A DNA stretch of 64,000 nucleotides from Planctomycetota bacterium (GCA_021776735.1 JAJFFH010000037.1:1-64000), one strand, 5' to 3'; shown: positions 4,161-60,992, numbered from the stretch's first letter. Notes: generated by a model not told the origin, from the letters alone. Translations and numbers: made by a program.

Positions 4161-4173
4161 ACGGACGGCGATG
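4161..4173 (+). repeat. Dispersed motif copy (AGCTG-ACGGACGGCGATG)
   Basis: Exact 13-mer in the 36-bp gap between the convergent ends of the thioredoxin-TPR gene and the small conserved operon. It belongs to the AGCNN subtype and is followed by C. Confidence 0.85.
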
Positions 4174-4174
4174 C

Positions 4175-4564
4175 CTATCGCCCGATCGGCGCGACGGGAA
4201 GCTCTACGCGGGCGATGCGCCGGAGCTTCACGCGAACCTCCTCATCTTTCGTCCCCAAGACATCCGTGTGCGCACGGTTCTCGGGCACCGGTGCGTGCGT
4301 GACCTCGAGAGGGATCTCCCGCACGTAGCCGGCAACGAATGAGAGAACACCGTTGTCGAGCGGCTCTCTTGCCCGGTCGCGAGCCTCCTCGGGAGTCGAA
4401 TATCTCGACCAGTCCATCGACATGGAATCGCCCCGGTCCTTGAATGCGGACGGACTGACGGCACCGTCGCTCTTCACCCACATACGGTGGAGTCGGAAAT
4501 ACAGATCGGAACCGTCAGGGATCGGCTCGACCGACCGTTTGATTGCTGAAGGGTCGTTAGCCAC
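4175..4564 (-). CDS. Conserved hypothetical protein, third gene of a small operon
   Basis: A 129-residue soluble protein with no signal peptide. The pattern DLYFRLHRMWVKSDGAVSPS followed by AF, a Ser-rich stretch, YSTPEEARDRA and VPENRAHTDVLGTKD matches, from memory, a widespread but uncharacterised family usually found beside proteins like the next one. The start overlaps the upstream gene by about 90 bp, more than a normal coupled pair; a later start or a small frameshift in the upstream gene would explain it. No function can be assigned. Confidence 0.6.
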   Translation of the reverse strand: MANDPSAIKRSVEPIPDGSDLYFRLHRMWVKSDGAVSPSAFKDRGDSMSMDWSRYSTPEEARDRAREPLDNGVLSFVAGYVREIPLEVTHAPVPENRAHTDVLGTKDEEVRVKLRRIARVELPVAPIGR

Positions 4565-5076
4565 AACAGAAGCCTCTCGTTTGTCGAGTCCGGATCGATC
4601 GTGCCCTTGATCTTCAGATCGCCGAAGTCGTCACCGTAGAACGCTGCCGGAGACCGCCGGTCCGCAGGAACATTCACCAACAGCTCCCGCGATCCGTTCA
4701 CCCAGTGAAGATCGACGCTTCCGTCCGCCACCGGCGTCAGGTCCGGCGCGGCGAGCGACTCGCCGGTCTGCTGCCGCACTGTCGCCGCGTGGCGCCGCAG
4801 AAACTCGACCGCCCGCTCCCACGCTTTGCGGCAGGGCAGCGCGGATTCGTCGTCCCAGCCCGCCTCGAGATCGGGAATCCACGACGAATCCTGAATCGCG
4901 TCCTCCGTCGGCTCGCTGGGCGACTCGTCCGAGGTCGAAGCGACGACGGAGGGCATAGCTTGCGTGAGGAACTGGCGCCTGACCTGTTCCGAAAACGCAC
5001 GTCGTCGCCTGTGCTCCTTGGTTGACTCAATCCAGGCGACCGTGTCGGCGCTGGTGACGGGCCTACTCCCCGTCAT
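4474..5076 (-). CDS. Conserved hypothetical protein with GWDDESALPC-type motif
   Basis: A 200-residue soluble protein. The N-terminal third is polar and low in complexity. The conserved core is GWDDESALPCRKAWERAVEF, then PDLTPVADGSVDLHWVNGSR and a beta-rich end (LLVNVPADRR, AFYGDD). This W-D-(x)-P core with a D-G-S-(x)-L-(x)-W strand is a recurrent pattern in small bacterial proteins of unknown role. The upstream gene ends 14 bp inside its start, and its own 3' end overlaps the following gene. About 20 residues after the family-like end (WLTTLQQ) may be read-through in an altered frame. Confidence 0.6.
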   Translation of the reverse strand: MTGSRPVTSADTVAWIESTKEHRRRRAFSEQVRRQFLTQAMPSVVASTSDESPSEPTEDAIQDSSWIPDLEAGWDDESALPCRKAWERAVEFLRRHAATVRQQTGESLAAPDLTPVADGSVDLHWVNGSRELLVNVPADRRSPAAFYGDDFGDLKIKGTIDPDSTNERLLLWLTTLQQSNGRSSRSLTVPICISDSTVCG

Positions 5077-5356
5077 CGGCTCCGGACTCCCCGTTGGCGT
5101 AGCGGTTCAGGAGCTTCGTCATGCGAGAAAACGCTTGGACAGAAAGAGAGACACGGGCAACCGGCCTAAGCTGTATCTCGGTTTGTTCACCCCCCTGGCC
5201 CGGCGCCGGAGGCACCAGTTCGCCAAACGTAATGACTGCGTCTCCATCCTGCAGACAAAGCCACACGTGGTTGGCATGAACGGAGCGGAGATCAGGCTCA
5301 TCCCTCCAGACCAGGTTGAGTTTGACTGATTCTCTCGGCGTTTGCTTGCTCGCCAT
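5063..5356 (-). CDS. Small conserved protein (DUF3467-like)
   Basis: A 97-residue acidic protein and the first gene of the three-gene operon. The sequence VWRDEPDLRSVHANHVWLC, then ITFGELVPPAPG, then RPVARVSLSVQAFSRMTKLL follows the layout I associate with the DUF3467-type family (short beta-rich proteins with an ANH motif and a C-terminal helix). It is divergent from moxR across 92 bp. The role of the family is not established; the conserved trio argues for a joint complex. Confidence 0.6.
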   Translation of the reverse strand: MASKQTPRESVKLNLVWRDEPDLRSVHANHVWLCLQDGDAVITFGELVPPAPGQGGEQTEIQLRPVARVSLSVQAFSRMTKLLNRYANGESGADDGE

Positions 5357-5448
5357 CGTCCGTCCAGCCTAACCCCTCACCCCACCTAAATCAGGGCGAA
5401 CTTGATCGTTCTGCGGAATCCCGAATCTTCCTGAATAATGCCCCGTCC

Positions 5449-6438: not shown

Positions 6439-7365
6439 ATGCAGGTCCGCGACGCCGAACTCGCCGAGCTTCTGGAAGAGGTGCGGCGCATCAATGTCAT
6501 GAGCCGGCGGCTGGTGACCGACATCATGGCGGGCGGGTACACGTCGGCGTTTCGTGGAGCCGGGCTCGAGTTCGACCGCGTGCGCGAGTATGTGCCCGGC
6601 GACGCGCGGCGCCTTGTCGACTGGAACGTGACCGCCCGCACCGGCCGCCCGTTCGTCAAGACGTTCGTCGACGAGCGCGAACTCACCGTCCTGTTTCTCC
6701 TCGATCTCTCCGCCTCGATGGAGGGCGGCTTCAGCCACTGGTCCATGCGGCAGACCGCTGCCCGTGTGTGTGCGTGTCTCGCCTTTTCAGCACTCCGCAA
6801 CAACGACAAGGCGGGCCTGCTCGCGTTCAGCGACGGCGTCGACAAGTACGTTCCACCGCAAAAGGGCGCAGGCCACGCCATGCGTATCGTCCGTGACTGC
6901 CTCGCGCTGCAAGGACAAAGCCCGCGCACCGACCTAGCGCCCGCACTCGAGTTCGCGGCGCGCGTCGTGCGGCGCCACTCGGTCGTGTTCGTCGTCTCGG
7001 ACTTTCTATCGGACGGCTGGCAGCGCCCGCTCGCGCTCGCCGCCCGCCGCCACGATGTCATCGCCGTCCGTCTGCTTCCGCCCGAAAATGTCCCCTCCGA
7101 TATCCCCCCCGCGGGTGCCGGACTGATGCGCGTCCGCGATCCCGAGACCGGTGCCGAGCGGATTATCGACTGGGGCAGCCCGCGCGTCCGCGCCGCCTAC
7201 ACCGAACAGATCGCCCGCCGGCGCATCCGTACCGAGGACGACCTCCGCCGCGCGGGTGCGGACCGGATGGACGTGCCCGTCCCGCGCGAACGGGATCCCG
7301 ATGCCATCGCCCGCCCGATCCTGCGGTTTTTTCGGATGCGCCAGCGCCGCGGCGCGAAGCGTTAG
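6439..7365 (+). CDS. DUF58 (VWA-like) protein of the MoxR/Bat operon
   Basis: A 308-residue protein with the DUF58 hallmark FRGAGLEFDRVREYVPGD, then DWNVTARTGRPFVKTF, and a VWA MIDAS sequence DLSASM near residue 93. The second hallmark is RRHDVIAVRLLPPE near residue 205. DUF58 proteins are the usual immediate partner of MoxR. It starts on the base after the moxR stop. A motif copy (7059-7071, antisense) falls on the codons for IAVR, where the family is itself conserved, so this copy may be coincidental. Confidence 0.9.
   Translation: MQVRDAELAELLEEVRRINVMSRRLVTDIMAGGYTSAFRGAGLEFDRVREYVPGDARRLVDWNVTARTGRPFVKTFVDERELTVLFLLDLSASMEGGFSHWSMRQTAARVCACLAFSALRNNDKAGLLAFSDGVDKYVPPQKGAGHAMRIVRDCLALQGQSPRTDLAPALEFAARVVRRHSVVFVVSDFLSDGWQRPLALAARRHDVIAVRLLPPENVPSDIPPAGAGLMRVRDPETGAERIIDWGSPRVRAAYTEQIARRRIRTEDDLRRAGADRMDVPVPRERDPDAIARPILRFFRMRQRRGAKR
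7059..7071 (-). repeat. Dispersed motif copy (AGCAG subtype)
   Basis: Exact 13-mer on the minus strand inside the DUF58 gene, read in-frame as IAVR. These residues fit the family pattern, so insertion is not implied here. It is the only full copy followed by A. Confidence 0.7.
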
Positions 7366-7375
7366 AATCCGGCGC

Positions 7376-8218
7376 TTGCGGGCATCCCTTGTTTTTTTTC
7401 TGGTGGTCGTCGCCGCGTGCGGCGGTCCCGAGCTGCCGAACCGAGACCTCGCGCTCGAGGTCACCGTCGGCGCCGAGGAAGTCGCGCTGGGCCAAGGATT
7501 CCCGGTCACGGTGCGGCGTCTTTGGAGCAAGAATCTCGATCCGGCGGCGTGGCGTGACGATGCGCTTTCGCCGTTGCGCCTGCGGCTTGAGAACACGACG
7601 GTGCGCGACGACGGCAAGCGCGTCGAAGAGGTGCGCAGGTTCCGGGCGTACGCGTTCACGCCGAGCGTCGTGACGGTGCCCCCGCCGATTCTGCGCGCGC
7701 GCCCGCGAGCCGGCGGCCCGGTCCGCGAAGCCGCGGCGGAAGGCTTCGAGGTGCGCGTCGTCGAATCGATCGATCCCGACGCACCCGGCGCCCCCGAATT
7801 GCCCGAATCGCACAAGCCGGTCCCGCCGCGGCACCGCGCGTGGTGGTGGTTCGCCGCCGCCGTCCTGGCCACCGGCGCGTACATCGCCGTCCGTAGGCTC
7901 CGTCAGCAACCGGCCGTCCCGGATCCCGACCCTGATCCCGACCCCGGACCCGATTGGCTCGCGCAACTAGCGGCATTGGACGGTGAAACCGACGTGCACG
8001 CGCAAGTCGCCGCAATCGTGCGCGCCCATGTCACGGAGCGCTTCGAGATCGACGCATCCGTGCGCACGACCGAGGAACTCGCGCGCGACGTGCCGGGTCT
8101 ACTCGACGTGCTGTCTCCGTGCGACCTCGTGAAGTTCGCGCAGCACGAGCCCGGCGAAACGGAGCGCGCGGACGTGTTGACCCGGGCCCGAAACTTCATC
8201 TTGAGTAAAGCTTCATGA
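7376..8218 (+). CDS. Membrane lipoprotein of the Bat operon (DUF4381/BatD-like)
   Basis: 280 residues from a TTG at 7376. I chose it because it gives a lipoprotein signal (MRASLVFFLVVVAAC, lipobox Cys at 15) ten bases after the DUF58 stop; no ATG fits. The layout is an extracytoplasmic beta-rich domain (residues 18-140), one transmembrane helix (AWWWFAAAVLATGAYIAV), an Asp-Pro repeat linker (DPDPDPDPGPD) and a cytoplasmic helical domain ending EPGETERADVLTRARNFILS. The C-terminal domain resembles that of DUF4381-type proteins in Bat operons. The stop overlaps the batA start by 4 bp. Confidence 0.7.
   Translation: MRASLVFFLVVVAACGGPELPNRDLALEVTVGAEEVALGQGFPVTVRRLWSKNLDPAAWRDDALSPLRLRLENTTVRDDGKRVEEVRRFRAYAFTPSVVTVPPPILRARPRAGGPVREAAAEGFEVRVVESIDPDAPGAPELPESHKPVPPRHRAWWWFAAAVLATGAYIAVRRLRQQPAVPDPDPDPDPGPDWLAQLAALDGETDVHAQVAAIVRAHVTERFEIDASVRTTEELARDVPGLLDVLSPCDLVKFAQHEPGETERADVLTRARNFILSKAS
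7882..7894 (-). repeat. Dispersed motif copy (AGCCT subtype)
   Basis: Exact 13-mer on the minus strand in the lipoprotein gene, at the end of the transmembrane helix (coding strand reads YIAVRRL). Followed by T on its own strand, matching the full AGCNNACGGACGGCGATGY form. Confidence 0.8.
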
Positions 8219-9204: not shown

Positions 9205-10853
9205 CCGTGTCGATGGTGTTCTTGCGGCCCGAGTGGTGGCCGCTACTTGTGGTCGCACTGATCGCTGGCGTCGTGCTGTGGCAACTCGACCGCGCGCGCG
9301 CCCGCCGCCTGCAACGCGCGGTCGGACCGGGCGCGCCCCGCGTCGCCACACTGCACGCGCCGCACCGCCGCGCACGCCGCCTCTTGTTCACTGCCGGCCT
9401 CGCCCTCGCCACCCTCGCCGCAATGCAGCCCGCGTGGGGCAAGACGACCCACCGCCGTGAGCCGCGCGGTACCGACGTCGTCGTGTGCCTCGACGTCTCG
9501 CGTTCCATGCTCGCCCGCGACCTGAAACCGAGCCGCCTCGTGCGCGCCCAGGACGAAATCGCAACGCTGTGCAAGACCGCGGGCGGCAACCGGCTCGCCC
9601 TCGTCCTGTTCGCCGGCGACACGCGCCTCGCTGCACCGCTCACGCGCGACCTCAACACGATCGCCACACTCGCGCGCCGCGCGAGTCCGCTCAGCGTCGC
9701 CCGCGGCGGATCGGACCTCGGCGCTGCACTCGCCGCGGCCCAACGCGCGCTCGGACAGGCACGCGGCGAACACTCGGTCATCGTCGTGCTCACCGACGGC
9801 GAGGACCTGACAGGAGAGGGACATCGAGCGGCGGAGGCGTGCCGCGCACAGGGACAAACAGTCCACTGCATCGGCTACGGGTCGGTGCGGGGTGCCAAGA
9901 TTCCGACGACAGGAACGGACGGCGATGCTTTTTTGCGCGACCGCTCCGGTGCCGAAGTCGTGTCGGCGATGAACCCGGCAAACCTGGCGCGAATCGCCGA
10001 AACGACAGGCGGCGCATTTGTGGACGCCGGCAAGAAAGACGATGCGCTGCTGCACCTGTACGAAACGCGCATCCGCGCGACCGCACGCGCGGCGTTCGAG
10101 GTGCGCGCGGGCCGCGGGAAGAAAAACCGGTTTCAGTGGCCGCTGCTGGCCGCGCTGTTGTGCTGGATGATCGAGCTGTCACTCCGGGAGCAACGGCGTC
10201 GGGGAACCGCGGCGGTGGCACTTCTCCTGATGCTCGCGCACTGTGGCCGCGATGTGCCCGACGCCTCGGCCCTGCGCGCGTACGAACGTGCACGCGCCGC
10301 CCTGCAGGCGGGCGAGCTGCGCCGCGCCGCGCAGGACGCCGCGGAGGCCGCGCGTTCGTCGGATCAAGGCAACGCAGTTCTGGCAACGTTCCTTTCCGGC
10401 AATATCGCGTTCGCACAATGCCTGCGTGCCGAGAAACAGGCGGACGCACCGGGCGCGGAGCCGTTCGCCATCGACGTCGCGATCCGCCACGCCGAACACG
10501 CGCGCGATTTCTGGCAGGACGCCGCCGTCACCCGCGCGGACTGGCCCGCGGCACGCCGCAACGTCGAGCGCGCGCTCGTCAAGCTCGATCAGCTCGAAAA
10601 GAAGAAGGCGCAGCGCCAGCCGAACAAGAAACGCACGGACCCAAAGCCGAAACCGCGCCCGCGTCCCGCTCAGCCCCGCAATCGAACAAGCAAGAGCACG
10701 AAGAAGCAGGCGCCGGCACCGCTGCTCAAGGAACTGGCCCCCGACGCGGTCGAAGAACTGCTGGCGCGCCTCGCGCAAAAGGAGAAAGACAAGGTCGCCC
10801 TGCGCCGTGCGGAACGAAAAAAGACCAACGCCCCCACCGAGAGGGACTGGTGA
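9201..10853 (+). CDS. batB: BatB-BatC fusion: VWA protein with helical TPR-like extension
   Basis: A 550-residue protein, longer than BatB alone (about 330). The N-terminal half is BatB: two transmembrane helices, MIDAS DVSRSM (98-103), VVLTDGEDLTG, and a helix near 315-330. A second hydrophobic segment (AAVALLLMLAHCG) follows, then a helical region (AYERARAALQAGELRRAAQD) like the TPR part of BatC, and a very basic Lys/Pro/Arg tail ending NAPTERDW. GTG at 9201 overlaps the batA stop as GTGA; ATG at 9213 is the alternative. A motif copy encodes TDGD in the loop after KIPTTG. Confidence 0.83.
   Translation: MTVSMVFLRPEWWPLLVVALIAGVVLWQLDRARARRLQRAVGPGAPRVATLHAPHRRARRLLFTAGLALATLAAMQPAWGKTTHRREPRGTDVVVCLDVSRSMLARDLKPSRLVRAQDEIATLCKTAGGNRLALVLFAGDTRLAAPLTRDLNTIATLARRASPLSVARGGSDLGAALAAAQRALGQARGEHSVIVVLTDGEDLTGEGHRAAEACRAQGQTVHCIGYGSVRGAKIPTTGTDGDAFLRDRSGAEVVSAMNPANLARIAETTGGAFVDAGKKDDALLHLYETRIRATARAAFEVRAGRGKKNRFQWPLLAALLCWMIELSLREQRRRGTAAVALLLMLAHCGRDVPDASALRAYERARAALQAGELRRAAQDAAEAARSSDQGNAVLATFLSGNIAFAQCLRAEKQADAPGAEPFAIDVAIRHAEHARDFWQDAAVTRADWPAARRNVERALVKLDQLEKKKAQRQPNKKRTDPKPKPRPRPAQPRNRTSKSTKKQAPAPLLKELAPDAVEELLARLAQKEKDKVALRRAERKKTNAPTERDW
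9915..9927 (+). repeat. Dispersed motif copy (ACAGGA subtype)
   Basis: Exact 13-mer in batB, read as acg-gac-ggc-gat (T-D-G-D) in the loop between GAKIPTTG and AFLRDRSG. It shares a run of more than 20 upstream and motif bases with the copy at 18340. Confidence 0.9.
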
Positions 10854-12145
10854 GCCGCACGCTGCCGCTGCTTCTTTTCGTTCTCGCCGCCGGTGCGCGC
10901 GCCGACGATCGCGCGTTCGTCGAGACCGTGATCGAACGCACGACCTGCTTCGTCGAGGAGTCGATCACCGTGCGCCTACGGATTGGCCTCGAGGAACGTC
11001 TGGCAAAAACACAGCTCGTGCAGATGTTTCAGCGGCCCTTCGATCTTCCCGTCTCCGTCCACGCGCCGTGGCTCAAGCCGCCGAAGTCCGGATCGGTCAC
11101 GCTGGTCTTGAACGGCGAGCCGGGACACGCAAACCGACGCGAGGCGGAAAACAGGAATGGACGACGATTCTTGATGTACGAGATCGCGCACACGCTCACG
11201 CCATCGCAGCCGGGCGCCATCGTGTTCGAAGCGCCGCGCCTGAACTACGTTCACGCCGCGGAGTTTCGCGACGATCTCGTCCACGGACGCACAGCCGTCA
11301 ACGAACTGACCGCGTCCACCCACGGGCAGCCGGTCACGCTCACGGTCCAGGCGTTACCCGAGGACGGACGCCCGGCGGATTTCGGCGGCGCCGTCGGCCG
11401 ATTCAGGATGCGCACGACCGCAACACCGCACGATCTCGACGCCGGCGCAACGCTGAAGCTGGTGCTGACCATCGAAGGCGAGGGCAACTTCGCGACCTTC
11501 GCCGCACCGTCACTTGACGGCTGGACCGGCTTTCATGTCTACGGCGCGCTCGAAGCCAAGACGCCGCGCCTGCGAATCGTGACCTACGAAATCGCGCCGC
11601 TCCACGGCGGCATCGAAGAGCTCCCCGCGATCCGGTTCGCCTACTTCGATCCGCAAGCGCGCGCGTACCGCACCGCGATCGCCAAACCGATTCCGCTGAT
11701 CGTGCACGGCAAAAAACCCGGTCCCATTGCCAAGACGAAGCCGTCGGAGCGGGCCGGCGGTTACGGCTGGCTGTACGCGGCCCTCGCAAGCATCGCCGTC
11801 GGTTTGCTGTCCCTTGTCTGGTTCGCCCGCCGGCGCCGTGCGCGTGCAACCGCTCCGACGTCCGCCGAACGTTTCCACGAGCGCGCGCAAGAACCCAACG
11901 CGGACGGCGAAGCGCTCTTCACGGCTTTTTTGGCTGCGCATCTCGGCGTGCCCGTCGCCGCGGTCATCGGTCCGGACTTGGCGCGGCGCCTCGAGGAAGC
12001 GGGAGCTGCATCGGACGTAAGCCAACGGACGGCGATGTTTGTCGAACGACTGGTCGGGGCGCGCTACGGCGGCCGCAAGAACGCGGATGCGCTTGCGGAA
12101 GCTTCGCGGCTGGTGGACGAGATCAGCGCGTGCCGACCATTGTAA
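10850..12145 (+). CDS. batD: BatD-like oxygen-tolerance protein
   Basis: 431 residues from a GTG that overlaps the batB stop by 4 bp. A signal peptide (MSRTLPLLLFVLAAGARADD) leads to two beta-rich BatD domains (PFDLPVSVHAPWLKPP, then FRMRTTATPHDLDAGATLKL), a transmembrane helix (WLYAALASIAVGLLSLVW) and a cytoplasmic helical domain. This is the standard last gene of moxR-bat operons. A motif copy encodes QRTAM in the last helix, and a near copy with one mismatch (11791-11803) falls in the membrane helix. Its 3' end overlaps the convergent gene by 23 bp. Confidence 0.85.
   Translation: MSRTLPLLLFVLAAGARADDRAFVETVIERTTCFVEESITVRLRIGLEERLAKTQLVQMFQRPFDLPVSVHAPWLKPPKSGSVTLVLNGEPGHANRREAENRNGRRFLMYEIAHTLTPSQPGAIVFEAPRLNYVHAAEFRDDLVHGRTAVNELTASTHGQPVTLTVQALPEDGRPADFGGAVGRFRMRTTATPHDLDAGATLKLVLTIEGEGNFATFAAPSLDGWTGFHVYGALEAKTPRLRIVTYEIAPLHGGIEELPAIRFAYFDPQARAYRTAIAKPIPLIVHGKKPGPIAKTKPSERAGGYGWLYAALASIAVGLLSLVWFARRRRARATAPTSAERFHERAQEPNADGEALFTAFLAAHLGVPVAAVIGPDLARRLEEAGAASDVSQRTAMFVERLVGARYGGRKNADALAEASRLVDEISACRPL
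12025..12037 (+). repeat. Dispersed motif copy (AGCCA subtype)
   Basis: Exact 13-mer in batD, read in the frame R-T-A-M (SQRTAMF), between helices of the C-terminal cytoplasmic domain. Followed by T. Confidence 0.9.
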
Positions 12146-14276: not shown

Positions 14277-17132
14277 ATGATCACGGTCCGGGTCACGAAC
14301 ATCGCCGTCCTTGGCTGTCTGCTTGTGCTGGGCTGCTCCGGTGATTCCGTCGATTCGACTGCGCCGGATCCGGCTCTGCGGATTCCGGAGGTGCGGGCAG
14401 CGCTCAAGCGGCACTACAACTTGTTTGAGCCGGCGGCGCTCGCGGCGCGCGTGAAGCGGATTCGACCACATGTCGAGGCGGTGCTGGGCGATTCACTCGG
14501 CGGGCCCGTGAAGGTGGCGCTGTTGTCGCGGGACATGGCGGTGGCCCGCGAGGTTCGGCGGGCGTTGGATGCGTCGGGCGAGACCGACCGGAAGAAACGG
14601 AAGCGAATCGGGATCATGGCCCGGGTCCAGTCCGCGGTCCTGTTCCGCACCGCGCTCGGCATGCTGGCCGGCACGGACGAAGGGTTGTACCTCTTGCCGG
14701 ACAACTTTCTGCGCTACCCGGAGGCGGATCGGCCGGGACTTCTCGATGTCGTGATCGCGCATGAGCTGGTGCACGTCTACCAGGCGCGGCGGCTGGGGCT
14801 GGACCCGGACGACGATGAGGCCACGGACGAAGCCGGCGACGCTCGATCTGCGGCGGTCGAGGGCCACGCCGAGTTTGTGTCCCGGGCGGTCGCGATCCGA
14901 CTGCACCTCGAAGCGGCGTTCGAAACGCTGGCCGATAGCTCGGGCGCGAACGATCCGTTGGAGTTCGCGGCGATCCTGCTCCGGAACCGCTTTCGCTATC
15001 GACAGGGAGAGCGGTTCTTCACCGCGGTGGCGCGCGAGCTCGGGCAAGAAGCGGCGGCCAAAAAGATCTTTCGCGAGCCGCCGACGTCGCACTGGCACAT
15101 CCAGAACCCCGCCCGCTATCTGGCGGGCGAACACAGCAGCGTTCGGCTCGCCATGCATCGTCTACTCGCGGCGTACGGCAAGAACGACGAGAAGGCGGAA
15201 GCGCTGCTCCCCGGAGCGCTGCGCTTGCAGGTGGGCGACGCCGCCGCAGGGGTCGTCCACGCGAGCCGCACCCACATCAAGGTGGCATACGGCGCGCTGC
15301 GGGGTTGGAGCGTCCGCGTCTACGCCGCGCGCTGCAAGACGCCGGCCGCCGCGCGCACATACCACGAGGCGCTCAAGAGCGCAGCCCGCTCGGGCGGAAA
15401 CAAGGTGATCTATCCGGACGATCTCTGGACTGTCACGCATTCGCACGTCGTGGACCGGACGGACGACGCACTGCACGCCGCACGCATCGCGCTCATCGGT
15501 CTCTGGGGCCTGACGGAGGCCCAGACCGTCGCGGTCCGGCGCGGCGCGACCGTCGTCCAGCTCGTGGTGTTTTCTCCCCCCGATGACGGGGAGCACCTTG
15601 TCCGGCTTGCGCGACGCATGCTCCGCACGCTCGATGCCGTCGAGCCGCCGGCGAATACCGCGGCGGCGCGCGTCCAGGCGCTGCTCAAGAAAGCGAGGTC
15701 CGGTTGGGCCGCGGACGCGACGACTCGCGAACTCCTGGTCTTGCTCGACGACCCGGATCCGGAAGTGCGCGCCGCCGCGGCCACTCTTGTCGCGCCCACC
15801 GACTCGGACGCCGCACGTCGTTTTCTGAAGGCGGCGAGCAAGCATCCGGACGCAGCCGTTCGCGCCCGGGCCGTCGCCCGACTCGGTAAACACGAGGACG
15901 TGGAAACCGCACTCGCCGATCCGCACCCGCTCGTGCGCCGGGCCGCACTCAAGGCGCTGGCAGCGCGCAAGTGGTTCGAGCGCGCGCCGGTTCCGCGGAT
16001 CGAGAAGCTCCTTGCGGATGCCGATCCGCGGGTTCGCGCCGCGACCCTCGCCGCACTCGGTGCCGCCGAGAGAGATCCTCCGGGGAATCTTCTCACGTGG
16101 GCCCGGGGTCCGGACGCACGCGTCCGCGTGGCGGCGTGGGACATCGCCGACAAGCGGCTCCTGGAGGAGGCCCTGGAGCGCGGTGTCCGCGACGACCGTG
16201 CCGTTCGGAATCGGGTGATGTTTTTCTTGTCTTCGCACACGCTAGAGGACGACCCCCGAGTCACGTGCGCGCTTGTCCGCGCCCTGCGGGACCAGACACC
16301 GTCGATCCCCTTCGGTATCGGGTTCGTCTCCAAGGAACGGTTTGCTCCGTTCGTGGACGATCTGATCAAGGCCCTCGAGCACGACATCGGACGAACCTTC
16401 GCGCTCTCTGCCCTCGCCAACCTGGACGCGCCCCGTGCCAAGGCCGCCGTGGCCATACGCATCCACGACCCCGATCATCGCCAGGCCATCGTGGAGAGAC
16501 TGGGCAAGTACCGGCCCGCCCATTCGCTGCTGCGCCAGGCCGTGCGCGATTGGGACCCGAACGTCCGCCTCGCCGCCGCCAAGTCACTGCAAGAGCTGGG
16601 CGACCAATCGCACGATCTTGTTCCGCTCGCGCTGGCGGTCTTGCGGTCCGTAGCGCCGGACGGCGACGCGGCGGACGTGCTCGGCGAGGCAGCCGCCGCG
16701 AAGGAACTCGGCCAGCACGAAGCCGCGGCGCGAATCGAGTTGTTTCGCGCGCTGACCTCCGACGATTCCATCATGCGTTGGGAGGCGGTGGACGCGCTGG
16801 TCCAGTTCGAGCCCTTGAGCCGTCGAGAGCGTCACGCGCTTCTTGAGCGTTTGAGGGACACGGACGTGTTCGTACGCAACGCTGTGGCGTCCGCAGTCCC
16901 GGACAAGTTGCGCGCCTACGCCGAGGAGGCTGTCCCGCTGCTCATCGACGTGATCAAGCGCGGCGAGGACTGGACGGACCTCAACGACTGCATCGAGGCG
17001 CTGCAAGAGCTGGGGGCCACGGCAAAACCGGCGCTGCCCGCTTTGCGCAAGCTCTTGAAGCACAAGGAAGAACTTGTCCGCAACGACGCGCGCGAAGCCA
17101 TCGACGCGATCAACGCCGCGGCGAAGAAGTAG
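14277..17132 (+). CDS. Lipoprotein with HELVH metallopeptidase-like domain and HEAT repeats
   Basis: 951 residues. Lipoprotein signal MITVRVTNIAVLGCLLVLGC (acylated Cys 20). The N-terminal half has a zinc-peptidase signature, HELVH at residues 162-166, with EGHAEF about 35 residues later as a possible third ligand, so it is gluzincin-like. From about residue 470 onward there are repeated HEAT-type units (DPDPEVRAAAATLV; DADPRVRAATLAAL; RDWDPNVRLAAAKSL; DTDVFVRNAVASAV). It is predicted to be anchored in the outer or inner membrane facing the periplasm. The peptidase call rests on motif spacing only; substrate unknown. Confidence 0.7.
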   Translation: MITVRVTNIAVLGCLLVLGCSGDSVDSTAPDPALRIPEVRAALKRHYNLFEPAALAARVKRIRPHVEAVLGDSLGGPVKVALLSRDMAVAREVRRALDASGETDRKKRKRIGIMARVQSAVLFRTALGMLAGTDEGLYLLPDNFLRYPEADRPGLLDVVIAHELVHVYQARRLGLDPDDDEATDEAGDARSAAVEGHAEFVSRAVAIRLHLEAAFETLADSSGANDPLEFAAILLRNRFRYRQGERFFTAVARELGQEAAAKKIFREPPTSHWHIQNPARYLAGEHSSVRLAMHRLLAAYGKNDEKAEALLPGALRLQVGDAAAGVVHASRTHIKVAYGALRGWSVRVYAARCKTPAAARTYHEALKSAARSGGNKVIYPDDLWTVTHSHVVDRTDDALHAARIALIGLWGLTEAQTVAVRRGATVVQLVVFSPPDDGEHLVRLARRMLRTLDAVEPPANTAAARVQALLKKARSGWAADATTRELLVLLDDPDPEVRAAAATLVAPTDSDAARRFLKAASKHPDAAVRARAVARLGKHEDVETALADPHPLVRRAALKALAARKWFERAPVPRIEKLLADADPRVRAATLAALGAAERDPPGNLLTWARGPDARVRVAAWDIADKRLLEEALERGVRDDRAVRNRVMFFLSSHTLEDDPRVTCALVRALRDQTPSIPFGIGFVSKERFAPFVDDLIKALEHDIGRTFALSALANLDAPRAKAAVAIRIHDPDHRQAIVERLGKYRPAHSLLRQAVRDWDPNVRLAAAKSLQELGDQSHDLVPLALAVLRSVAPDGDAADVLGEAAAAKELGQHEAAARIELFRALTSDDSIMRWEAVDALVQFEPLSRRERHALLERLRDTDVFVRNAVASAVPDKLRAYAEEAVPLLIDVIKRGEDWTDLNDCIEALQELGATAKPALPALRKLLKHKEELVRNDAREAIDAINAAAKK

Positions 17133-17153: not shown

Positions 17154-17166
17154 CATCGCCGTCCGT
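17154..17166 (-). repeat. Dispersed motif copy (TCACGA flank)
   Basis: Exact 13-mer on the minus strand in the 54-bp gap between the convergent ends of the HEAT lipoprotein gene and the large carboxypeptidase-regulatory gene. Its flank fits neither main subtype. Followed by T. Confidence 0.85.
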
Positions 17167-49242: not shown

Positions 49243-52200
49243 TTACCAGTCGAGACGGGGCAGCTTGCGCACGTACACGTGCGTGTCGCGGTTGCAGCCG
49301 GTCGGGCCCCAGTAATTGAAGTGGTAGGTGAACTGCGCGTAGCCGCCGACCATCAGGTTCGGCTTCAGGCGCGTGCGCGTCAGGCTGTTGTGACCGCCGG
49401 CGCGCCGGTTCTTGCGAAGCGGCGAACGCGGGACGCCGTAGGTGCGCTCGGTGGAGTGGTAGAGGATGCCGATGCCGCGCGGAATGCGCGCGGACACCGC
49501 TGCCCGCGTCACCGCGACGCCGTGGTCGTTGTGCACCTCGACCCAGTCGTTGTCGACGATCCCGATCTGCTCGGCATCCTTGACGTTCATCCAAAACGGA
49601 TCGCAGCCGCGCGACAGCGTCGACATGCGCTCGTTGTCGCCGTACGTCGAGTGGATGTGCCATTTGCCGTGCGGCGTCAGGTAGTTCAACATCACCGTCG
49701 GCCCCTCTTCGGTACTCACGACGAGGTCGGCGTACTCGGTGGGCTTCGGCTTGGGCTTGTACGTCGGCAGATGCTCGCCGAACTCGAGGTAGCCGGGGTG
49801 ATCGAGGTACAGGTGCTGGCGGCCCGTCAGCGTGCGCCACGGCACCAGCAGCTCCTTTTGAAACGTGAAGGGAGCGTACGGACGGCCGTTCTCGGTCAGG
49901 CCCGACCACATCGGACTGTTGAGGAGACGGCGCGGCCGGCCCTGCAGGTCGTCGAAGTCGCAGCGCTGGCTCCGGGACTTCTCGGCGACGTGCGCGAGCT
50001 TGAGGCCGGTCTTGACCTCGAGATCGAGGTAGGACCGGTGCGACAGCTCGCCGTTCGTGACCGTCGCCAGGTGCAGGATCGTGTTGCAGACCTGCACGTC
50101 GTCTTTCAGCGACGGATAGATCGTGTCGTCAAGCTCCTCGACCGGCCACGTGGCGACCATCTCGTCGTAGAAGTCCTCGCAGTTGTAGTGCGTGCCGTGC
50201 GCGCCCAGTCCGCCTTCGCGAACGTTCGGGCCCAGCGAGATGAACTGCTTGTAGACGTCCTTGTAGTTGCGCTTGATGACCTTCAGATTGGGCATGGTCT
50301 TGCCCGGGATCGGTTCGACCGTGCCGTCGATCCAATCCTCGATGGCCGGCTGCGCGATCTCCGCCGGCGAGTCGTGTGACAGCGCCGCCGCGATAAGGTC
50401 GTCGACGGGCTCCGGGAAGTGGCGCTCCGCGAGCTCCGAGAACTTCTTCGAGATCTCGCGGAAAATCTGCCAGTCGCTCTTGCTTTCCCAGCACGGGGGA
50501 ACAGCCGGCGTCAACGGATGGATGAAGCTGTGCATGTCCGTCGAGTTGAGATCCGCCTTCTCGTACCAGGTGGCGGCCGGCAGGACGATGTCGGAGTAGA
50601 GCGCCGACGTATCCATGCGGAAGTTCAGGTCGACGACGAGATCCAGCTTGCCGGTCGGTGCAACCTCGTGCCACTTGACTTCCTTGACGTGCTCCTTGGC
50701 AAGAGGCTCGGCGATTTCGTTGTGGTGCGTGCCGAGATAGTGCTTGAGAAAGTACTCGTGGCCCTTGGCCGAGGACTGCAGCGCGTTGCCGCGCCAGATG
50801 TACCAGACCCGCGGCCAGTTCTCAGGCGCGTCGGGATCTTCGACGGAGAACTTCAGGTCGCGCGACTTCAGCCGGTCGACGACGCGCTTCACGACCTCGG
50901 CGTCGTCCTTCGCGCCATGCTCTCTCGCTTCCTTGACGACGTCGATCGGATTCTCGGAGAACTGCGGGTAAAACGGCAGCCATCCGTTGCGCACCGCGCG
51001 CACCTGCGTGTCCATGGTGTGGCCGCGCGCGAGCCCACTGCCCTCGTCGCCGCGCTCGGGCACGGCGTGATAATCGGTGAACTCGCGCTCGTAGCGCCAC
51101 TGGTCGCTGTGCACATAGTGCCAGCTCGGCGCGTTCTGCAGGCGCGCGCCCGGATACCAGTCCTTGCCAAGCGCGATCGCCGACCACGGCTCCATCGGCG
51201 CCAGTTTTTCCTGGCCGACATAGTGCGCGAGACCGCCGCCGTTGGTGCCCACGCAGCCGCAAAAAACGAGCGCGTGGATGCCGGCGCGATACATCAGGTT
51301 GGCGTGGTACCAGTGGTTGATCCCGGCGCCGATGATGATCGTGCAACGACCCTCGGTCTTCTCCGCGGTCACGCCCCACTCGCGGGCGAAGCGAAGAAGC
51401 TCCTTGCGGCTGATGCCGGTGAAGCGCTCGGACCACGCGGGGGTATACGGCGCATCCTCGTCGTCGTAGTTCTCCGGATAGCCCTTCAGACCGCGAGGAA
51501 CGCCGTATTGGGCCATGAGCAGGTCGTAGACCGTCGCGACCGTGACAGTCTTGCCGTCCGCGGTTTCGATCCGGCGGACCGGCACCTCGCGAGTGACCGT
51601 GCGCCCCTCGGCGAAGTCGTCGAGCAAGACCATCGCGACGCCGTCGCCGCCGTTCAGGAACGTGAGCGCGGGATCGATCTTCGAGCCGTCGGCGCCGTCC
51701 TCGAGCTTTAGGTTCCACTGGCCCTTTTGATCCTGCCAGCGGTGGCCGGACGAGCCCATGGGCATCTTCGGGCGCTGGTCACCCTCGTCCCACATGAGGA
51801 ACTTCCACTCGCCGTTCTGCTCGCCCTCGTACGCCTTCAGGCGACCGGCGCGCAGCAACTGGCCCGGCGACAAGACATCGCCGTCCGTCTGCTTACTTCC
51901 GGTGGACTCCGCAAGTTCCACGAGGAACGGGCTGTCGGTGAAGCGCTTGGAATAGTCGAGGAAGTACGGCGTCTGCTTTTCGTGGTGGAACTCCTTGAGC
52001 AGCACGTGGTTGACGGCCATCCACCAGGCGCCGTCCTGGCCCGCGTTGACCGGGACCCAGGTGTCGGCGTACTTCGAGACCTGGCTGAAGTCGGGGGAGA
52101 AGACCCACATCTTCGTGCCGTTCGTGCGCGCCTCGGCGGCGAAGTGCACGTCCGGCGTGCGGGTCATGTTGAGGTTGCTCCCCATGACCGCGAGCAGCTT

Positions 52201-53935: not shown

Positions 53936-53948
53936 ACGGACGGCGATG
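53936..53948 (+). repeat. Dispersed motif copy (AGCGA subtype)
   Basis: Exact 13-mer in the leader of the nar-act operon, at about the predicted transcription start of the sigma-54 promoter. Followed by T. Confidence 0.88.
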
Positions 53949-54247: not shown

Positions 54248-55666
54248 CTAGCTCCGGCGGAACTGTTCTCTGGTCAGGCCCTGGGCGCGCATGATGCGTT
54301 GGACGGCGGCTCGCGTCAGGCCGCAACTTCGGGCTGCGGCCGAGACGTTGCCGTCTGAGTCGTCGAGCGCGCGTTCCAGGAATCGCCGTTGAAACGCGTC
54401 GACGACGCGGCGCTTGCCTTCCTCGTACGAGACGGATGGGTCCACGATCGGGCGGCTCCAACGTGCGTTCTCTTCGAGGCCCAAGTGTTCGGGGCAGATC
54501 GGCTTTCCGCCACTCAGCACCAGCGCGCGGTGGATGCAGTTTTCGAGTTCGCGCACGTTGCCCGGCCATGCGTGCGTGTCGAGCGCGGAGAGCCCCGATT
54601 CCGACAAGACACCGGGACGCGCGACCTCCGCGGCATACTTTTTTAGAAAGTGCGCGGCCAGCGGTCGGATATCGCGAGGGCGGTCGCGCAGGTTCGGCAC
54701 TTCGAGCGTGAACACCTGCAAGCGGTAGTACAAGTCCTCGTGGAACGTGCCTTGGGCCATCAGTTCCTTGAGGTCGCGGCTGGTCGCGGAGACAAGGCGA
54801 AAATCGACGGGCTTGGGGTCGATCGAGCCCAGGGGTACGACCACGCGCTCTTGCAATACGCGCAACAGCTTGCCCTGAAAGCCGAGCGACATCAGGCCGA
54901 TTTCGTCCAGGAACACCGTGCCACCCTGGGCCTGTTCGAAGATTCCCTGGCGCGCGCGATCGGCGCCGGTGAATGCGCCCTTCTCGTGGCCGAACAGTTC
55001 CGCTTCAAGGAGCGCGTCCGGAAGGGCTGCGGTGTTGACCGCCAAGAACGGCTTGCTCGCGTTCTTGCTGCGGTCGTGGATGGTTCGGGCGATCAGTTCC
55101 TTTCCGACGCCGCTGGCGCCCTGGATGAGCACACTCATGGTCGTAGGTGCGACCTGGTCGAGACGCGCGAGGACGGCGCGCATCGCGGGATCCTCGGCGA
55201 TGAACGCGCGGTCCGCAGACATCGCCGTCCGTTTGCTATCCATGCGCAGCGCCCGCTCGGCCAAGACCGCCTCGGTGCCGAATCGTCGGATCGCGGCGAG
55301 CAGGTCCTCGTTGTCGAACGGCTTCGTGACGAAGTGCGATGCGCCGAGTCCCATCGCGGTGACGGCCAGTTCGATCGTGCCGAAGCCGGTGACCAGGATG
55401 ACGCGGGTGTCAGGGAGGCAGGCGCGCAGCTCGCGCAACAGGTCGATGCCGCTCATGCGACCCATCGTGATATCGCTGACGACGACATGGGGACGCCACT
55501 CCCGCGCGGTTTCGAGCGCCTGTTCGCCGTTGGCTGCCGCCTGGACCGATGCGCCTACGGATTCGCTCAGCATACGGAGACCCAGACGCACGTCGGGCTC
55601 GTCATCGACCACGAGCACGCGCAGCCCGCCGGGCCTCCAGACCGCGTCCGTCATCTTGCTGTTCAT
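54248..55666 (-). CDS. NtrC-family sigma-54 response regulator
   Basis: 472 residues. Receiver domain with phospho-acceptor Asp65 (VVSDITM) and KPFDNEDL. AAA+ domain with Walker A GASGVGKE, the sigma-54 contact loop ELFGHEKGAFTGA, and Walker B GTVFLDEIG. A C-terminal Fis-type helix-turn-helix (DGNVSAAARSCGLTRAAVQR). A motif copy encodes SKRTAMSA in the linker between receiver and AAA+ domains. It follows the kinase gene by 15 bp. The neighbouring sigma-54 promoter and palindrome make the nar-act operon its probable target. Confidence 0.9.
   Translation of the reverse strand: MNSKMTDAVWRPGGLRVLVVDDEPDVRLGLRMLSESVGASVQAAANGEQALETAREWRPHVVVSDITMGRMSGIDLLRELRACLPDTRVILVTGFGTIELAVTAMGLGASHFVTKPFDNEDLLAAIRRFGTEAVLAERALRMDSKRTAMSADRAFIAEDPAMRAVLARLDQVAPTTMSVLIQGASGVGKELIARTIHDRSKNASKPFLAVNTAALPDALLEAELFGHEKGAFTGADRARQGIFEQAQGGTVFLDEIGLMSLGFQGKLLRVLQERVVVPLGSIDPKPVDFRLVSATSRDLKELMAQGTFHEDLYYRLQVFTLEVPNLRDRPRDIRPLAAHFLKKYAAEVARPGVLSESGLSALDTHAWPGNVRELENCIHRALVLSGGKPICPEHLGLEENARWSRPIVDPSVSYEEGKRRVVDAFQRRFLERALDDSDGNVSAAARSCGLTRAAVQRIMRAQGLTREQFRRS
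55220..55232 (-). repeat. Dispersed motif copy (AGCAA subtype)
   Basis: Exact 13-mer on the coding (minus) strand of the response regulator, read as R-T-A-M in the interdomain linker. Followed by T. Confidence 0.92.
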
Positions 55667-55681: not shown

Positions 55682-57829
55682 TCAATCACGCGCCGATTCC
55701 ACGGGATCGGGCGCAGTGTTCTTGTCCGGCAGGAGAATCGCGAAGGTCGTGCCTCCGGCGCCGGTGGCGACGATCTCCAGACTTCCGGCATGGGCCGCGA
55801 TGATACGGCGCGATGTCGAGAGACCCAGTCCCGTACCGACCCCCGGCGCTTTCGTCGTAAAGAACGGCTCGAAAACGCGGTCCCGCTCGTCGGCCGGAAT
55901 GCCGGTCCCCGTGTCTTCGACCTCGATCCTGAACCCGCGCTCGTCTCTCCGGGCGCGGACCGCGACCCAGCCGCCGTCCTCCATCGCGTGCACAGCGTTC
56001 ATGACCAGGTTGATCAGCACCTGCCGGAGTTGCAGTTCGTCGCCGACCACGTCGCCGACGTCTTCCGCGCAATCAACGTCGAACGCAATGCCCGCGCGTT
56101 CCCAGATGGGGCGCAGAAAACGGCGCACGTCCTCGATCAGATCGCGGAGATCAAAGTCGGCGGTGTCCGGCGGCCCCTGCCCGGCCGTGTCCAGCAGACC
56201 GCGGATCGTGCGCCGGCACGTCTCGACGTTGCGCCGGATGACCTCTGCGCTCTCGCGCGCCGCGTTCCGGGCCGCCTCGTCGGACAAGCCGCGACCGGCG
56301 CCGCCGGCGCCCCCGCCCCCCCCTTCCCCTGCATCAAGCTGGCTCTCCAGCATCTGCGCGAACATTGCGATCGCGGCCAACGGATTGTTGAGCTCGTGCG
56401 CCATGACGGCGGAGATGTTGCCGAGCACGTTCATGCGCTCCTGATGCGCCTGCACCTTCGCCTGCGCCACGCGCTCGGTGATGTCACGACTCACGCACAG
56501 GCGCCCCGGCGACTCGCCGTCCGCTCCCGGGAGTTCGGTGACGTGGACTTCGAAGACGCGGCCGTCCGCCTTGATCGTGCAGGCGCCGCGCGGCAGCACG
56601 GCCTCGCGCAGGCAATTGACACAACCCGCGGCGTCGGGCGCCGCGCAGCCGGCACGCACCGCGACCGACGCGTCGTCCAGCAACTCGACGAGCGGCTGCG
56701 CGGCCTCGTTCGCAAACGTCACCGAACCGTTGCCGTCCAACGCGAGCAGGCCGTCGCGCATCGAACTCAGCACGGCATCCAGGCGGTCGCGCTCCAGGCG
56801 GATCGACGCCTCGCGCCGCTTCAACGCTTCCGTGCGCTCCTCGATAGCGTTGGCCATGATGTCGAACGCGCGCGAAAGATCGCCGATCTCGTCCTTCGAC
56901 GAATAGCCCACTCGCACCGAAAAATCGCCCCCGGCAAGGCGGCGCGCGGCCTCCCGAATGCGCGACAGCGGCGCGAGCAGAAAACGTACGGGGAAAAACA
57001 AGACCAGCGCGGTCAAGCCCAGGAGCACGGCCGCGGTCGCGAGAAACCTGTTGCGCAGACGCGCGGCGGGCGCCGTGACGGCCGCGCGATCGACCTCGAC
57101 GATCAGGTTCCAACCGGTCTCGGGAATCGTACTGCGATACGCGATCGCGTCGGCCGGGGACTGATCGCCGGCAAGCTGCAGACGCGCCCCGCGCCCCGAC
57201 TGCACCGCCACGACCGCGCCATCGGCAGCGGGCAACCCCCGCAGCTCGTTCATGCCCCCCACCCATGTGTCCGCCCGAATCTGCAGGACCAACGTCCCGA
57301 TACGGCGCTTGCCGGACAGATCGCGCAACGGCGTCGCAACCGCGAAGCTGGGGTAGTCGCGGGAACCGCCGGGCTCAAGCAGCGCCGTGAACGACGTCTC
57401 CGAAACCGATCGGCCTTCCGCCCCCCCGTACGCATCGCAGATACGCCGCCCCGCCATGTCCAGGACCGCAGCATCGACAAACGCAGCCACGAGGGGCAGC
57501 TTGCTGGCAACAAGATGCTCCCGTAGCTGACGGACGGCGATGCTTTCGGGCGTCGCCCCCTCAGCGGCGATCGCTTCCGCCGAAGTGCGAATGAAACCGT
57601 CGGACGCAAAGTCCTCGGCGCGGCGGGCGACGAGGTCCAGGTGATGCCGCACGATCATCCGCGTCGCGGCCGCGCGCTCGTCCAGACGGCTGCGGATCTG
57701 GCGGACCAGCGCCTCTTGTGCCGTGGACGTCACGACGAATCCGCCGACGCCGAAGGCGACGAGGCAGATACTGACGAACGTCAACGGCAGCTTGAACTTG
57801 ATGGGAACCCAAAAGAGGGGATCCCGCAT
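55682..57829 (-). CDS. Membrane sensor histidine kinase (Cache-HAMP-PAS-HisKA-HATPase)
   Basis: 715 residues from ATG 57829 with GGAGG ten bases upstream. Two membrane helices (FVSICLVAFGVGGFVV and the one at FLATAAVLLGLTALVLF) flank a periplasmic sensing domain of about 260 residues. HAMP, then a PAS domain with a Cys group (GCAAPDAAGCVNC) that could sense redox or metal. HisKA phospho-acceptor in NISAVMAHELNNPLAAI. ATPase domain with QVLINLVMNAVHAM and VEDTGTGIP and GVGTGLGLSTS. A Gly-rich insert (EGGGGGAGGAG) arises from a C5-G-C8 run. It is the partner of the following regulator, and divergent from tetR. Confidence 0.9.
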   Translation of the reverse strand: MRDPLFWVPIKFKLPLTFVSICLVAFGVGGFVVTSTAQEALVRQIRSRLDERAAATRMIVRHHLDLVARRAEDFASDGFIRTSAEAIAAEGATPESIAVRQLREHLVASKLPLVAAFVDAAVLDMAGRRICDAYGGAEGRSVSETSFTALLEPGGSRDYPSFAVATPLRDLSGKRRIGTLVLQIRADTWVGGMNELRGLPAADGAVVAVQSGRGARLQLAGDQSPADAIAYRSTIPETGWNLIVEVDRAAVTAPAARLRNRFLATAAVLLGLTALVLFFPVRFLLAPLSRIREAARRLAGGDFSVRVGYSSKDEIGDLSRAFDIMANAIEERTEALKRREASIRLERDRLDAVLSSMRDGLLALDGNGSVTFANEAAQPLVELLDDASVAVRAGCAAPDAAGCVNCLREAVLPRGACTIKADGRVFEVHVTELPGADGESPGRLCVSRDITERVAQAKVQAHQERMNVLGNISAVMAHELNNPLAAIAMFAQMLESQLDAGEGGGGGAGGAGRGLSDEAARNAARESAEVIRRNVETCRRTIRGLLDTAGQGPPDTADFDLRDLIEDVRRFLRPIWERAGIAFDVDCAEDVGDVVGDELQLRQVLINLVMNAVHAMEDGGWVAVRARRDERGFRIEVEDTGTGIPADERDRVFEPFFTTKAPGVGTGLGLSTSRRIIAAHAGSLEIVATGAGGTTFAILLPDKNTAPDPVESARD
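57530..57542 (+). repeat. Dispersed motif copy (AGCTG subtype)
   Basis: Exact 13-mer antisense to the kinase gene, read as S-I-A-V-R-Q in the periplasmic sensing domain. Followed by C. Confidence 0.88.
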
Positions 57830-57864
57830 GGTCTTGAACCTCCGAGGGGGGCGCGCATCATATC

Positions 57865-57892
57865 TTGCCCTAAGTAAGTAAGCGATTACTAT
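57865..57892 (+). promoter_or_regulatory. Divergent promoter with TetR-type operator
   Basis: TTGCCC (57865-57870), 16 bp, TACTAT (57887-57892), so transcription starts about at the GTG 57899 (leaderless). Overlapping it is AGTAA-GCGA-TTACT (57877-57890), a form common in TetR operators, with additional AAGTAAGT to its left. The 69-bp gap to the kinase start suggests that TetR controls both genes. Confidence 0.5.
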
Positions 57893-57898
57893 CTTCAC

Positions 57899-58516: not shown

Positions 58517-58536
58517 TTCACACGGAGACCAAGATC

Positions 58537-59217: not shown

Positions 59218-59234
59218 GTGAATCCGAGTCAGCA

Positions 59235-59262
59235 AACGGACGGCGATGCATCGCCGTCCGTT
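59235..59262. repeat. Perfect 28-bp palindrome formed by two head-to-head motif copies
   Basis: Left arm AACGGACGGCGATG (59235-59248), right arm its exact reverse complement (59249-59262). The left copy has the AGCAA flank and the right copy the ACAGGA flank, so each keeps its own subtype. It lies 17 bases after the ric stop and 26 before the cytochrome ATG, followed by a T-rich run. It can form a terminator-like stem. Confidence 0.92.
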
Positions 59263-59288
59263 CCTGTCTGTTGTTGTCCGTCTTCGCC

Positions 59289-60980
59289 ATGAAACGCTTC
59301 GCGTTCTTCTTGCTCGCCGCCGGTTTCCTGGCAGTCGGCTTCGTTTGGGCCGGGCCGCCGTGGCCTGCTCCGAAGCGCGTGCGCACGCGCCACTTCGCCA
59401 CGGCGCAAGCGTGCGTGATCTGCCACTCGAACCACAAGAACGCCCGCGCCATGCGCGACGACAAGGGGCGCGGCATCGCTCCGTACGACCTGTGGCGCGG
59501 CACCATGATGGCGAACGCGGCGCGTGATCCGCTCTGGCGCGCGTTCGTGTCGGCCGAAATCGCGGCCACGCCGTCGGCGCGCCGGGTGATCGAGGCCAAG
59601 TGCCTGCGCTGCCATACGCCGCTGGCCGCGGCGGAGGTCGAGGCGCGCGTTGGGCGCGGTGCGTTGAATCTGTCCGTGCTCGACGACACGGGCGATCTCG
59701 GCCAGCTCGCACGCGACGGGGTGTCGTGCACGCTGTGCCACCAGATTCGCGACGTCGGCCTCGGCAAGCCCGAGAGCTGGTCGGGGCTGTTTGTCGCGGG
59801 CGGCAAGCAGCAGATCTTCGGCCCCCACAAGAACGTGCGCACGCATCCGATGCAACGCCATGTGGGCTACACCCCGACCTACGCGCCGCATGTCACGAGC
59901 TCCGCGATGTGCGGCACCTGCCACACTCTCTTTACGGATTCGCTCGCCGCGGACGGCAAGGCGACGGGTCACGTGCTCACCGAACAGAGCACGTATCTCG
60001 AGTGGCGCAACTCGGCCTTTCGCACCGAAACGGATGCATCCGGCAAGAAGCCCGGGCCCGACGCGCGCAGTTGCATCGACTGCCACATGCCGACGGCGAA
60101 CAAGAACGGACAGGCGTACCGCGCCGGCATCGCGCGCTGGCCGGGCGGCGGTGATTTTCCGTTCGTCAAGCCGCGCACGCCGTACGGCCTGCACCGAATC
60201 GTCGGCGGCAATACCCTGATGCCCGCCATCCTGAGGGACGGGCCGTGGAGCGTGGCATCTCGCGAGGCGTTCGACGCGACCATCGCCGCTGCACGCGATC
60301 TGTTGCAGCAGCAGACCGCCGACGTAAAGATCGAAGCGGCGACACGAACCACGGGCAGTCTCTTGGTCACGGTGAGGGTGCACAACCGGGCGGGCCACAA
60401 GTTCCCGACGGGCATTCCGCTGCGGCGCGCATGGCTGCGCATTCGTGTCCGCGATGCGAGGGGCCGCGTGCTCCTCGCCTGGGGCGACCACGACGACGCG
60501 GGCCGGATCCTCGACGCCGACAAGAAACCGCTCGTCTTCGAACACGTCGGCGGACCGCTCGCGCCGCACCGCGCGCGCGCGTCGGGCCCGGCGGAGGTGC
60601 CGGTCTACGAGGCCGTCATGGAAGACGCGCAGGGCGCCGTGACGTACTCGTTGCTGCGTGCCGCACGCTATCGCAAGGACAACCGGCTGCTACCCCGAGG
60701 CTGGCGCGACGATCACGCGCACGCCAAGGCAGCGGCGCCCGTCGGGACCAGCGACGACAAGGACTTCGTGGGCGGATCGGACGGGGTCGTGTTCGAACTC
60801 CCGCGCGTGGCCGGCGCCGCCACGGTGCACGTCGATCTGCTGTACCAGACCCTGAGCGCCCGCGTCGCCGCGGAACTCTTTGAGCACAAGACCGCAGAAG
60901 TCGCGACGTTCCGCAAGGCCTACGAAGCCGCGGACCGCCGCCCGGTCACGGTCGCAACCGCCACGCGCCGCATCAAGTAA
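59289..60980 (+). CDS. Pentaheme cytochrome c (c554-like multiheme protein)
   Basis: 563 residues. A signal peptide (MKRFAFFLLAAGFLAVGFVW) leads to five CxxCH sites: CVICH, CLRCH, CTLCH, CGTCH and CIDCH. The C-terminal 230 residues are beta-rich without heme motifs (SLLVTVRVHNRAGHKFPTGI), including HKFPTG, which recurs in multiheme proteins of this group. It is periplasmic. It could take part in nitrite, hydroxylamine or nitric oxide chemistry or in electron storage, but sequence alone does not decide. ATG 59289 is chosen because of the signal peptide; the longer frame runs through the palindrome. Confidence 0.8.
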   Translation: MKRFAFFLLAAGFLAVGFVWAGPPWPAPKRVRTRHFATAQACVICHSNHKNARAMRDDKGRGIAPYDLWRGTMMANAARDPLWRAFVSAEIAATPSARRVIEAKCLRCHTPLAAAEVEARVGRGALNLSVLDDTGDLGQLARDGVSCTLCHQIRDVGLGKPESWSGLFVAGGKQQIFGPHKNVRTHPMQRHVGYTPTYAPHVTSSAMCGTCHTLFTDSLAADGKATGHVLTEQSTYLEWRNSAFRTETDASGKKPGPDARSCIDCHMPTANKNGQAYRAGIARWPGGGDFPFVKPRTPYGLHRIVGGNTLMPAILRDGPWSVASREAFDATIAAARDLLQQQTADVKIEAATRTTGSLLVTVRVHNRAGHKFPTGIPLRRAWLRIRVRDARGRVLLAWGDHDDAGRILDADKKPLVFEHVGGPLAPHRARASGPAEVPVYEAVMEDAQGAVTYSLLRAARYRKDNRLLPRGWRDDHAHAKAAAPVGTSDDKDFVGGSDGVVFELPRVAGAATVHVDLLYQTLSARVAAELFEHKTAEVATFRKAYEAADRRPVTVATATRRIK

Positions 60981-60992
60981 ATCGCCGTCCGT
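60981..60992 (-). repeat. Dispersed motif copy, 12 of 13 bases (AGCAA subtype)
   Basis: Starts on the base after the TAA of the pentaheme cytochrome gene. Only the last motif base differs, because the stop codon supplies it. Confidence 0.85.

Follow-up and report, generated by a model that had tools for sequence, protein, structure and literature searches.

We report that the genome of a Planctomycetota bacterium is populated by a dispersed 13-nucleotide motif, ACGGACGGCGATG, and we propose, with a probability that we put at roughly 70%, that it is a lineage-private DNA-uptake sequence that evolved independently of the DUS of Neisseria and the USS of Haemophilus. The motif is spread over the whole genome, with 1,202 exact copies in 5.97 Mb (589 on the plus and 613 on the minus strand) against none of a control word, the motif read backwards, which excludes near-chance counts outside the 64-kb stretch that was analysed as a whole (the window). 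A rescan of the window found 20 exact copies, each at the coordinate and on the strand given by the initial annotation, and five copies with one mismatch (Table 1). Of these five, the one previously placed at 60981 does exist but occupies 60980-60992, and the other four, at minus-strand positions 1096, 11791, 14300 and 19358, had not been listed. The 25 copies at up to one mismatch compare with a mean of 0.37 and a maximum of 2 in dinucleotide shuffles of the window. Detailed figures for anatomy and placement come from 1.21 Mb of the 5.97-Mb genome, fetched as stretches, and this sample holds 246 exact copies, where an order-3 Markov model expects 0.29, together with 134 one-mismatch copies. 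The density is 0.2 per kb for exact copies and 0.31 with one mismatch included, and the total of both kinds extrapolates to roughly 1,900 sites.

Table 1. Exact and one-mismatch copies of the motif in the 64-kb window and their setting.
Position	Strand	Copy	Setting
1096..1108	-	one mismatch, ACTGACGGCGATG	sense, gene 379-1755(-)
4161..4173	+	exact	directly past stop, gene 1889-4138(+)
7059..7071	-	exact	antisense, gene 6439-7365(+)
7882..7894	-	exact	intergenic per simple gene calls
9915..9927	+	exact, ACAGGA flank	sense, gene 9201-10853(+), TDGD frame
11791..11803	-	one mismatch, ACCGACGGCGATG	
12025..12037	+	exact	gene edge / intergenic
14300..14312	-	one mismatch, AAGGACGGCGATG, most frequent tolerated variant	
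17154..17166	-	exact	convergent genes on either side
18340..18352	+	exact, ACAGGA flank	antisense, gene 17187-20399(-)
19358..19370	-	one mismatch, ACGGACGGCGACG	flank TGTGGAT, a poor fit; possibly a coding coincidence (TDGD within repeat protein)
23471..23483	+	exact	antisense, gene 21055-24222(-)
24270..24282	-	exact	intergenic, divergent genes on either side
25003..25015	+	exact	sense, radical SAM gene 24663-26066(+)
25958..25970	-	exact, ACAGGA flank	antisense, gene 24663-26066(+)
30652..30664	+	exact	intergenic
40514..40526	+	exact	sense, gene 40482-41588(+)
41222..41234	-	exact	antisense, gene 40482-41588(+)
51876..51888	-	exact	sense, molybdopterin oxidoreductase gene 49243-53286(-), TDGD frame
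53936..53948	+	exact	intergenic
55220..55232	-	exact	sense, gene 54248-55666(-)
57530..57542	+	exact	antisense, gene 55682-58051(-)
59236..59248	+	exact, left half of perfect +/- pair	
59249..59261	-	exact, ACAGGA flank, right half of perfect +/- pair	
60980..60992	-	one mismatch, ACGGACGGCGATT, common tolerated variant	at stop, gene 59106-60980(+)

An Rfam search of the window gave no match. In two window genes (21055-24222 and 27928-30528) ECF-type sigma factor domains are joined to several carboxypeptidase-regulatory-like repeats, a fusion that recurs in the motif-bearing genome (also L136:7580-9958).

Conservation extends beyond the 13-mer. The full consensus, drawn from the 246 exact copies of the sampled 1.21 Mb and the 134 with one mismatch, is RAAGCnnA(C/a)GGACGGCGAT(G/a/t)YYTYY, about 30 bits, or RAAGCnnACGGACGGCGATGYYTYY with the commonest bases. 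Mismatches in the core fall mainly at the edge positions 2 (C to A, 33 of the 134 copies) and 13 (G to A or T, 58; G to C, 7), and positions 5 to 10 show almost no variation. The two flank subtypes described for the window (AGCNN in 15 of 21 copies, ACAGGA in 4) are both real across the sampled genome, with AGCnn at 168 of the 246 exact copies and CAGGA at 27. A T or C does follow the motif nearly always, the exceptions in the window numbering one (7059) and not two as thought at first. Upstream there are weaker purine peaks at -10 and -21, that is, at one and two helical turns, with dips at -3 and -14; the resulting 11-bp period is what one would expect if a protein held the helix from one side for two to three turns. 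The sharp base tolerance and the helically phased flanks imply recognition by a protein, though not which protein, and they would also suit the main rival to our proposal, namely that a lineage-specific DNA-binding protein (a nucleoid organiser, or a segregation or repair factor) has sites that are selected singly for reasons unrelated to uptake. We consider this rival unlikely for reasons given below.

The strand balance claimed for the window holds genome-wide and inside single contigs, and orientation relative to GC skew is also balanced (192/188). A polar chromosomal signal such as Chi or KOPS, which the copy number might recall in being of similar order to that of Chi, would have strand polarity along the replichore, of which neither comparison shows any sign, and the ~30 bits of the motif far exceed an 8-bp polar site. 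All six gene frames are used, as had been noted, and the 132 genic copies are spread over them unevenly (sense 57/7/15, antisense 8/8/37), the preferred readings being TDGD (57) and IAVR (37). The 57 TDGD readings would fit a coding repeat; against this stand the use of six frames, the 114 copies outside called genes, and synonymous codon shuffles within genes, which left 0-12 copies where 132 were observed. Since the shuffles abolish nearly all genic copies, codon usage and protein sequence can be excluded as the makers of the motif, as can a single duplicated protein family as its sole source.

As the initial annotation had it, copies occur both in genes (132) and between them (114 of those in the sampled 1.21 Mb), and the genic share is 54% though coding sequence makes up 82% of the DNA. 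Copies are about 4-fold denser between genes than inside them (per kb, 0.77 in convergent, 0.53 in tandem and 0.40 in divergent regions, and 0.13 in genes), figures that are approximate since the genes were called with a simple codon-usage caller. The first 60 bp past a stop codon hold 45% of the non-genic copies against 14% of intergenic positions. The site of a global regulator would hardly have its lowest intergenic density in divergent regions, where promoters lie, and we regard this reading, like the polar signal and the coding repeat, as barely credible. Enrichment of the motif in genes conserved in relatives was looked for and is absent. The longest motif-free stretch, 19.7 kb on contig C11, carries the remnant of a transposase of the Mutator family and also a SUKH protein, and its genes have a lower GC content (58-62%). 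Both the transposase remnant and the lower GC are expected of newly acquired DNA, which this stretch resembles.

Close pairs (<100 bp) in the sampled 1.21 Mb are mostly head to head, with 18 +/-, 5 -/+, 1 ++ and no -- pairs, separated by -2 to 79 bp. The window contains one perfect +/- pair, a 26-bp inverted repeat at 59236-59261. The hairpin pairs of USS and DUS likewise favour the +/- order (PMC1852404). When paired copies were checked for a terminator role, their hairpins were strong and their T-tails weak. Copies are spaced a little more evenly than under random placement (CV 0.91, against a random mean of 1.02 with a 95% range of 0.92-1.14), a regularity that sites of a DNA-binding protein could also show. 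Adjacent copies share a strand in 142 of 369 cases, below chance, and close +/- pairs explain only part of this. Immediately after several intergenic copies comes a hairpin of the GCGAAAATCGCC-TTC-GGCGATTTTCG type, which may represent a terminator family that recurs in this genome.

The intergenic enrichment and the inverted pairs raise the question of whether the motif is a mobile repeat of the REP/BIME or MITE kind that has spread by making copies of itself, the more so as a true REP-like repeat is present in the sister genome G003. REP/BIME elements are similarly dispersed, intergenic-rich and capable of forming hairpins from pairs. Following the test applied to the USS of H. influenzae (PMC1626085), proteins with genic copies were aligned to 1.35 Mb of relatives' DNA. 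In this small sample, 10 of 13 genic sites with well-aligned flanks were gap-free against motif-free relatives, and the 3 gapped sites are what insertion would predict. At ungapped sites the motif residues replace others (e.g. VGMGVLPLTHTDGDTPESLGLDGTE where relatives have VGMGVLPLCFLDGATHESLGLDGTE), and identity to relatives is 26-30% at motif residues compared with 54% in control windows. It is therefore likely that genic copies arise mostly by substitution, either at a cost to the protein or at tolerant sites. With poor alignments included, gaps occur at 10 of 30 genic sites, above the 7% background and mostly in poorly conserved segments, which indicates that some copies lie in indel-prone segments. 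Unlike REP/BIME, the motif thus mostly does not appear to be inserted, more than half of its copies are genic, its pair spacing is variable, and similarity among copies stops within about 25 bp, with no conserved arms beyond. The alignments largely refute a mobile repeat for the genic copies, and we find this explanation highly improbable for the motif as a whole.

The motif is private to its lineage. By its YebC the motif-bearing genome comes closest to Gimesia out of 12 named genomes compared (53% identity), and this, along with a 16S fragment, suggests Planctomycetota. Counts of ACGGACGGCGATG in 39 relatives range from 0 to 5 per genome (0-1 in four genomes of the same family), and the 901 copies of its longer form GGACGGCGATGYYT here contrast with no more than 3 in any of the 16 other genomes of the class; the motif-bearing genus is represented by one genome. 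Scans with AGCNNACGGACGGCGATG showed no second motif-rich organism among the matches listed from genome contigs, a set outside which the home genome of the motif may lie, or among those from viral contigs, and matches were single per stretch. No comparable over-represented word was found in the sister genera, of which G001, G002 and G004 are thinly sampled. The commonest word of G003 belongs to a REP-like element, palindromic and clustered, whose conserved arms are longer (CCAACATCTGACGATGTTGG, the conserved 3' arm being ..GACGTTCG..GGTTTGGCATGC; core 35 times in about 1.2 Mb; e.g. L174, contig C1 7086-7200, and L189, contig C16 2575-2920). The next over-represented words of the motif-bearing genome are G-rich, of the CCCCCGCCCCC type (74 in 1.21 Mb, where 1.4 would be expected), and are not related to the motif. 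A literature search for the motif word returned unrelated papers only. The suggestion that selection acts on the DNA itself is borne out by the counts, the lineage restriction, the neutrality to strand and frame and the origin by substitution.

DNA-uptake sequences had been named as the nearest parallel, and the traits of the sequence agree with this. Like DUS and USS, the motif has dispersed copies far above chance, no orientation bias, a preference for noncoding DNA, an apparent origin by substitution, close +/- pairs, and a host that encodes competence and type IV pilus machinery. Self-specific DNA uptake has been called unique to two proteobacterial families (PMC3630211), and the same two are named elsewhere (PMC7811141, PMC12616744). 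The USS of Pasteurellaceae (AAGTGCGGT in the Hin type, ACAAGCGGT in the Apl type) are likewise dispersed without orientation bias, mainly noncoding, fairly regularly spaced and found in opposed close pairs (PMC1626085, PMC1852404), and they too arise by substitution and have additional flanking segments at a spacing of one helical turn (PMC1626085). The motif differs from them in its unrelated and longer core, its lower density, its phylum and the putative nature of its role in uptake, and its flanks are upstream and purine-rich whereas those of USS are downstream and AT-rich. A homologous USS dialect was rejected, as the consensus contains neither core, AAGTGCGGT or ACAAGCGGT (PMC1626085). 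The DUS of Neisseriaceae (GCCGTCTGAA and its dialects) share with the motif thousands of copies, permissive sites, inverted pairs, lineage-specific dialects and a short intolerant core (PMC3630211); the extended flanks of the motif have no DUS counterpart. A homologous DUS dialect was also rejected, the invariant CTG core (PMC3630211) being on neither strand of the 13-mer. The reverse strand of the motif and DUS share only GCCGTC, which is short enough that the overlap can be due to chance. At 0.2-0.31 per kb, the motif is sparser than the signals of known uptake systems, which occur about once per kb. HIP1 of cyanobacteria (GCGATCGC) is another abundant, dispersed short word, but it is a short palindrome whereas the motif is long and non-palindromic. 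With no DUS or USS core and no palindrome, the motif is, as first stated, neither a known uptake sequence nor HIP1.

The competence genes that self-specific uptake would call for are present. The genome encodes ComEC (Competence and beta-lactamase-like domains, with a weak DUF4131 match), DprA, and a short ComEA-like HHH protein that scores below the curated NCBIfam cut-off and above the Pfam cut-off. The type IV pilus set comprises several PilB and several PilT ATPases, PilC, a PilD-type peptidase, PilM near pilin genes, seven secretin matches and about 18 pilin-type matches. Since ComEC is also found in motif-free relatives, this machinery would be necessary yet does not account for specificity, and competence genes, being widespread, are weak support for the uptake reading when taken alone.

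We propose that the motif is read by a protein on the cell surface, in all likelihood a minor pilin of the type IV pilus (the role of ComP in Neisseria), which would contact the rigid core GGACGGCGAT with its AAGC and YYT arms as well as the upstream purines that follow the helical phase. On retraction, the pilus would draw the bound duplex through a secretin, the ComEA-like protein would hold it, and ComEC and DprA would hand the single strand to recombination. If fragments with the motif thereby enter cells and recombine more frequently, molecular drive would spread any chance mutation that brings a sequence closer to it, and tolerant positions on either strand would fill up through substitution; head-to-head pairs may additionally form hairpins. 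From these sequence data we infer that self-specific uptake together with molecular drive is the most economical account. A DNA-binding protein unrelated to uptake would need strong selection at each of 1,900 separate sites against the cost to proteins, whereas drive needs none, and the +/- pair bias and the clustering after stop codons fit uptake sequences. To our knowledge, the sites of known chromosome organisers are far fewer, or polar. It is similarly doubtful that the sites reflect an entirely new, sequence-specific system of DNA recognition that acts genome-wide and has spread its binding site through genes by substitution; a lineage-specific chromosome organiser or a self/non-self mark would be examples.

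If the motif is an uptake sequence, it would be a third case of self-specific uptake, unrelated in sequence to the others and in another phylum, which would mean that the trait evolves repeatedly. It would offer an independent test of the molecular-drive model and a new pair of pilin and DNA for the study of recognition, and the recurrence of flanks at helical turns on an unrelated core would bear on how a stiff duplex is bent into the uptake pore. It would also imply gene exchange by natural transformation in these bacteria, on which literature searches found almost nothing, and would give a starting point for developing genetic tools in them.
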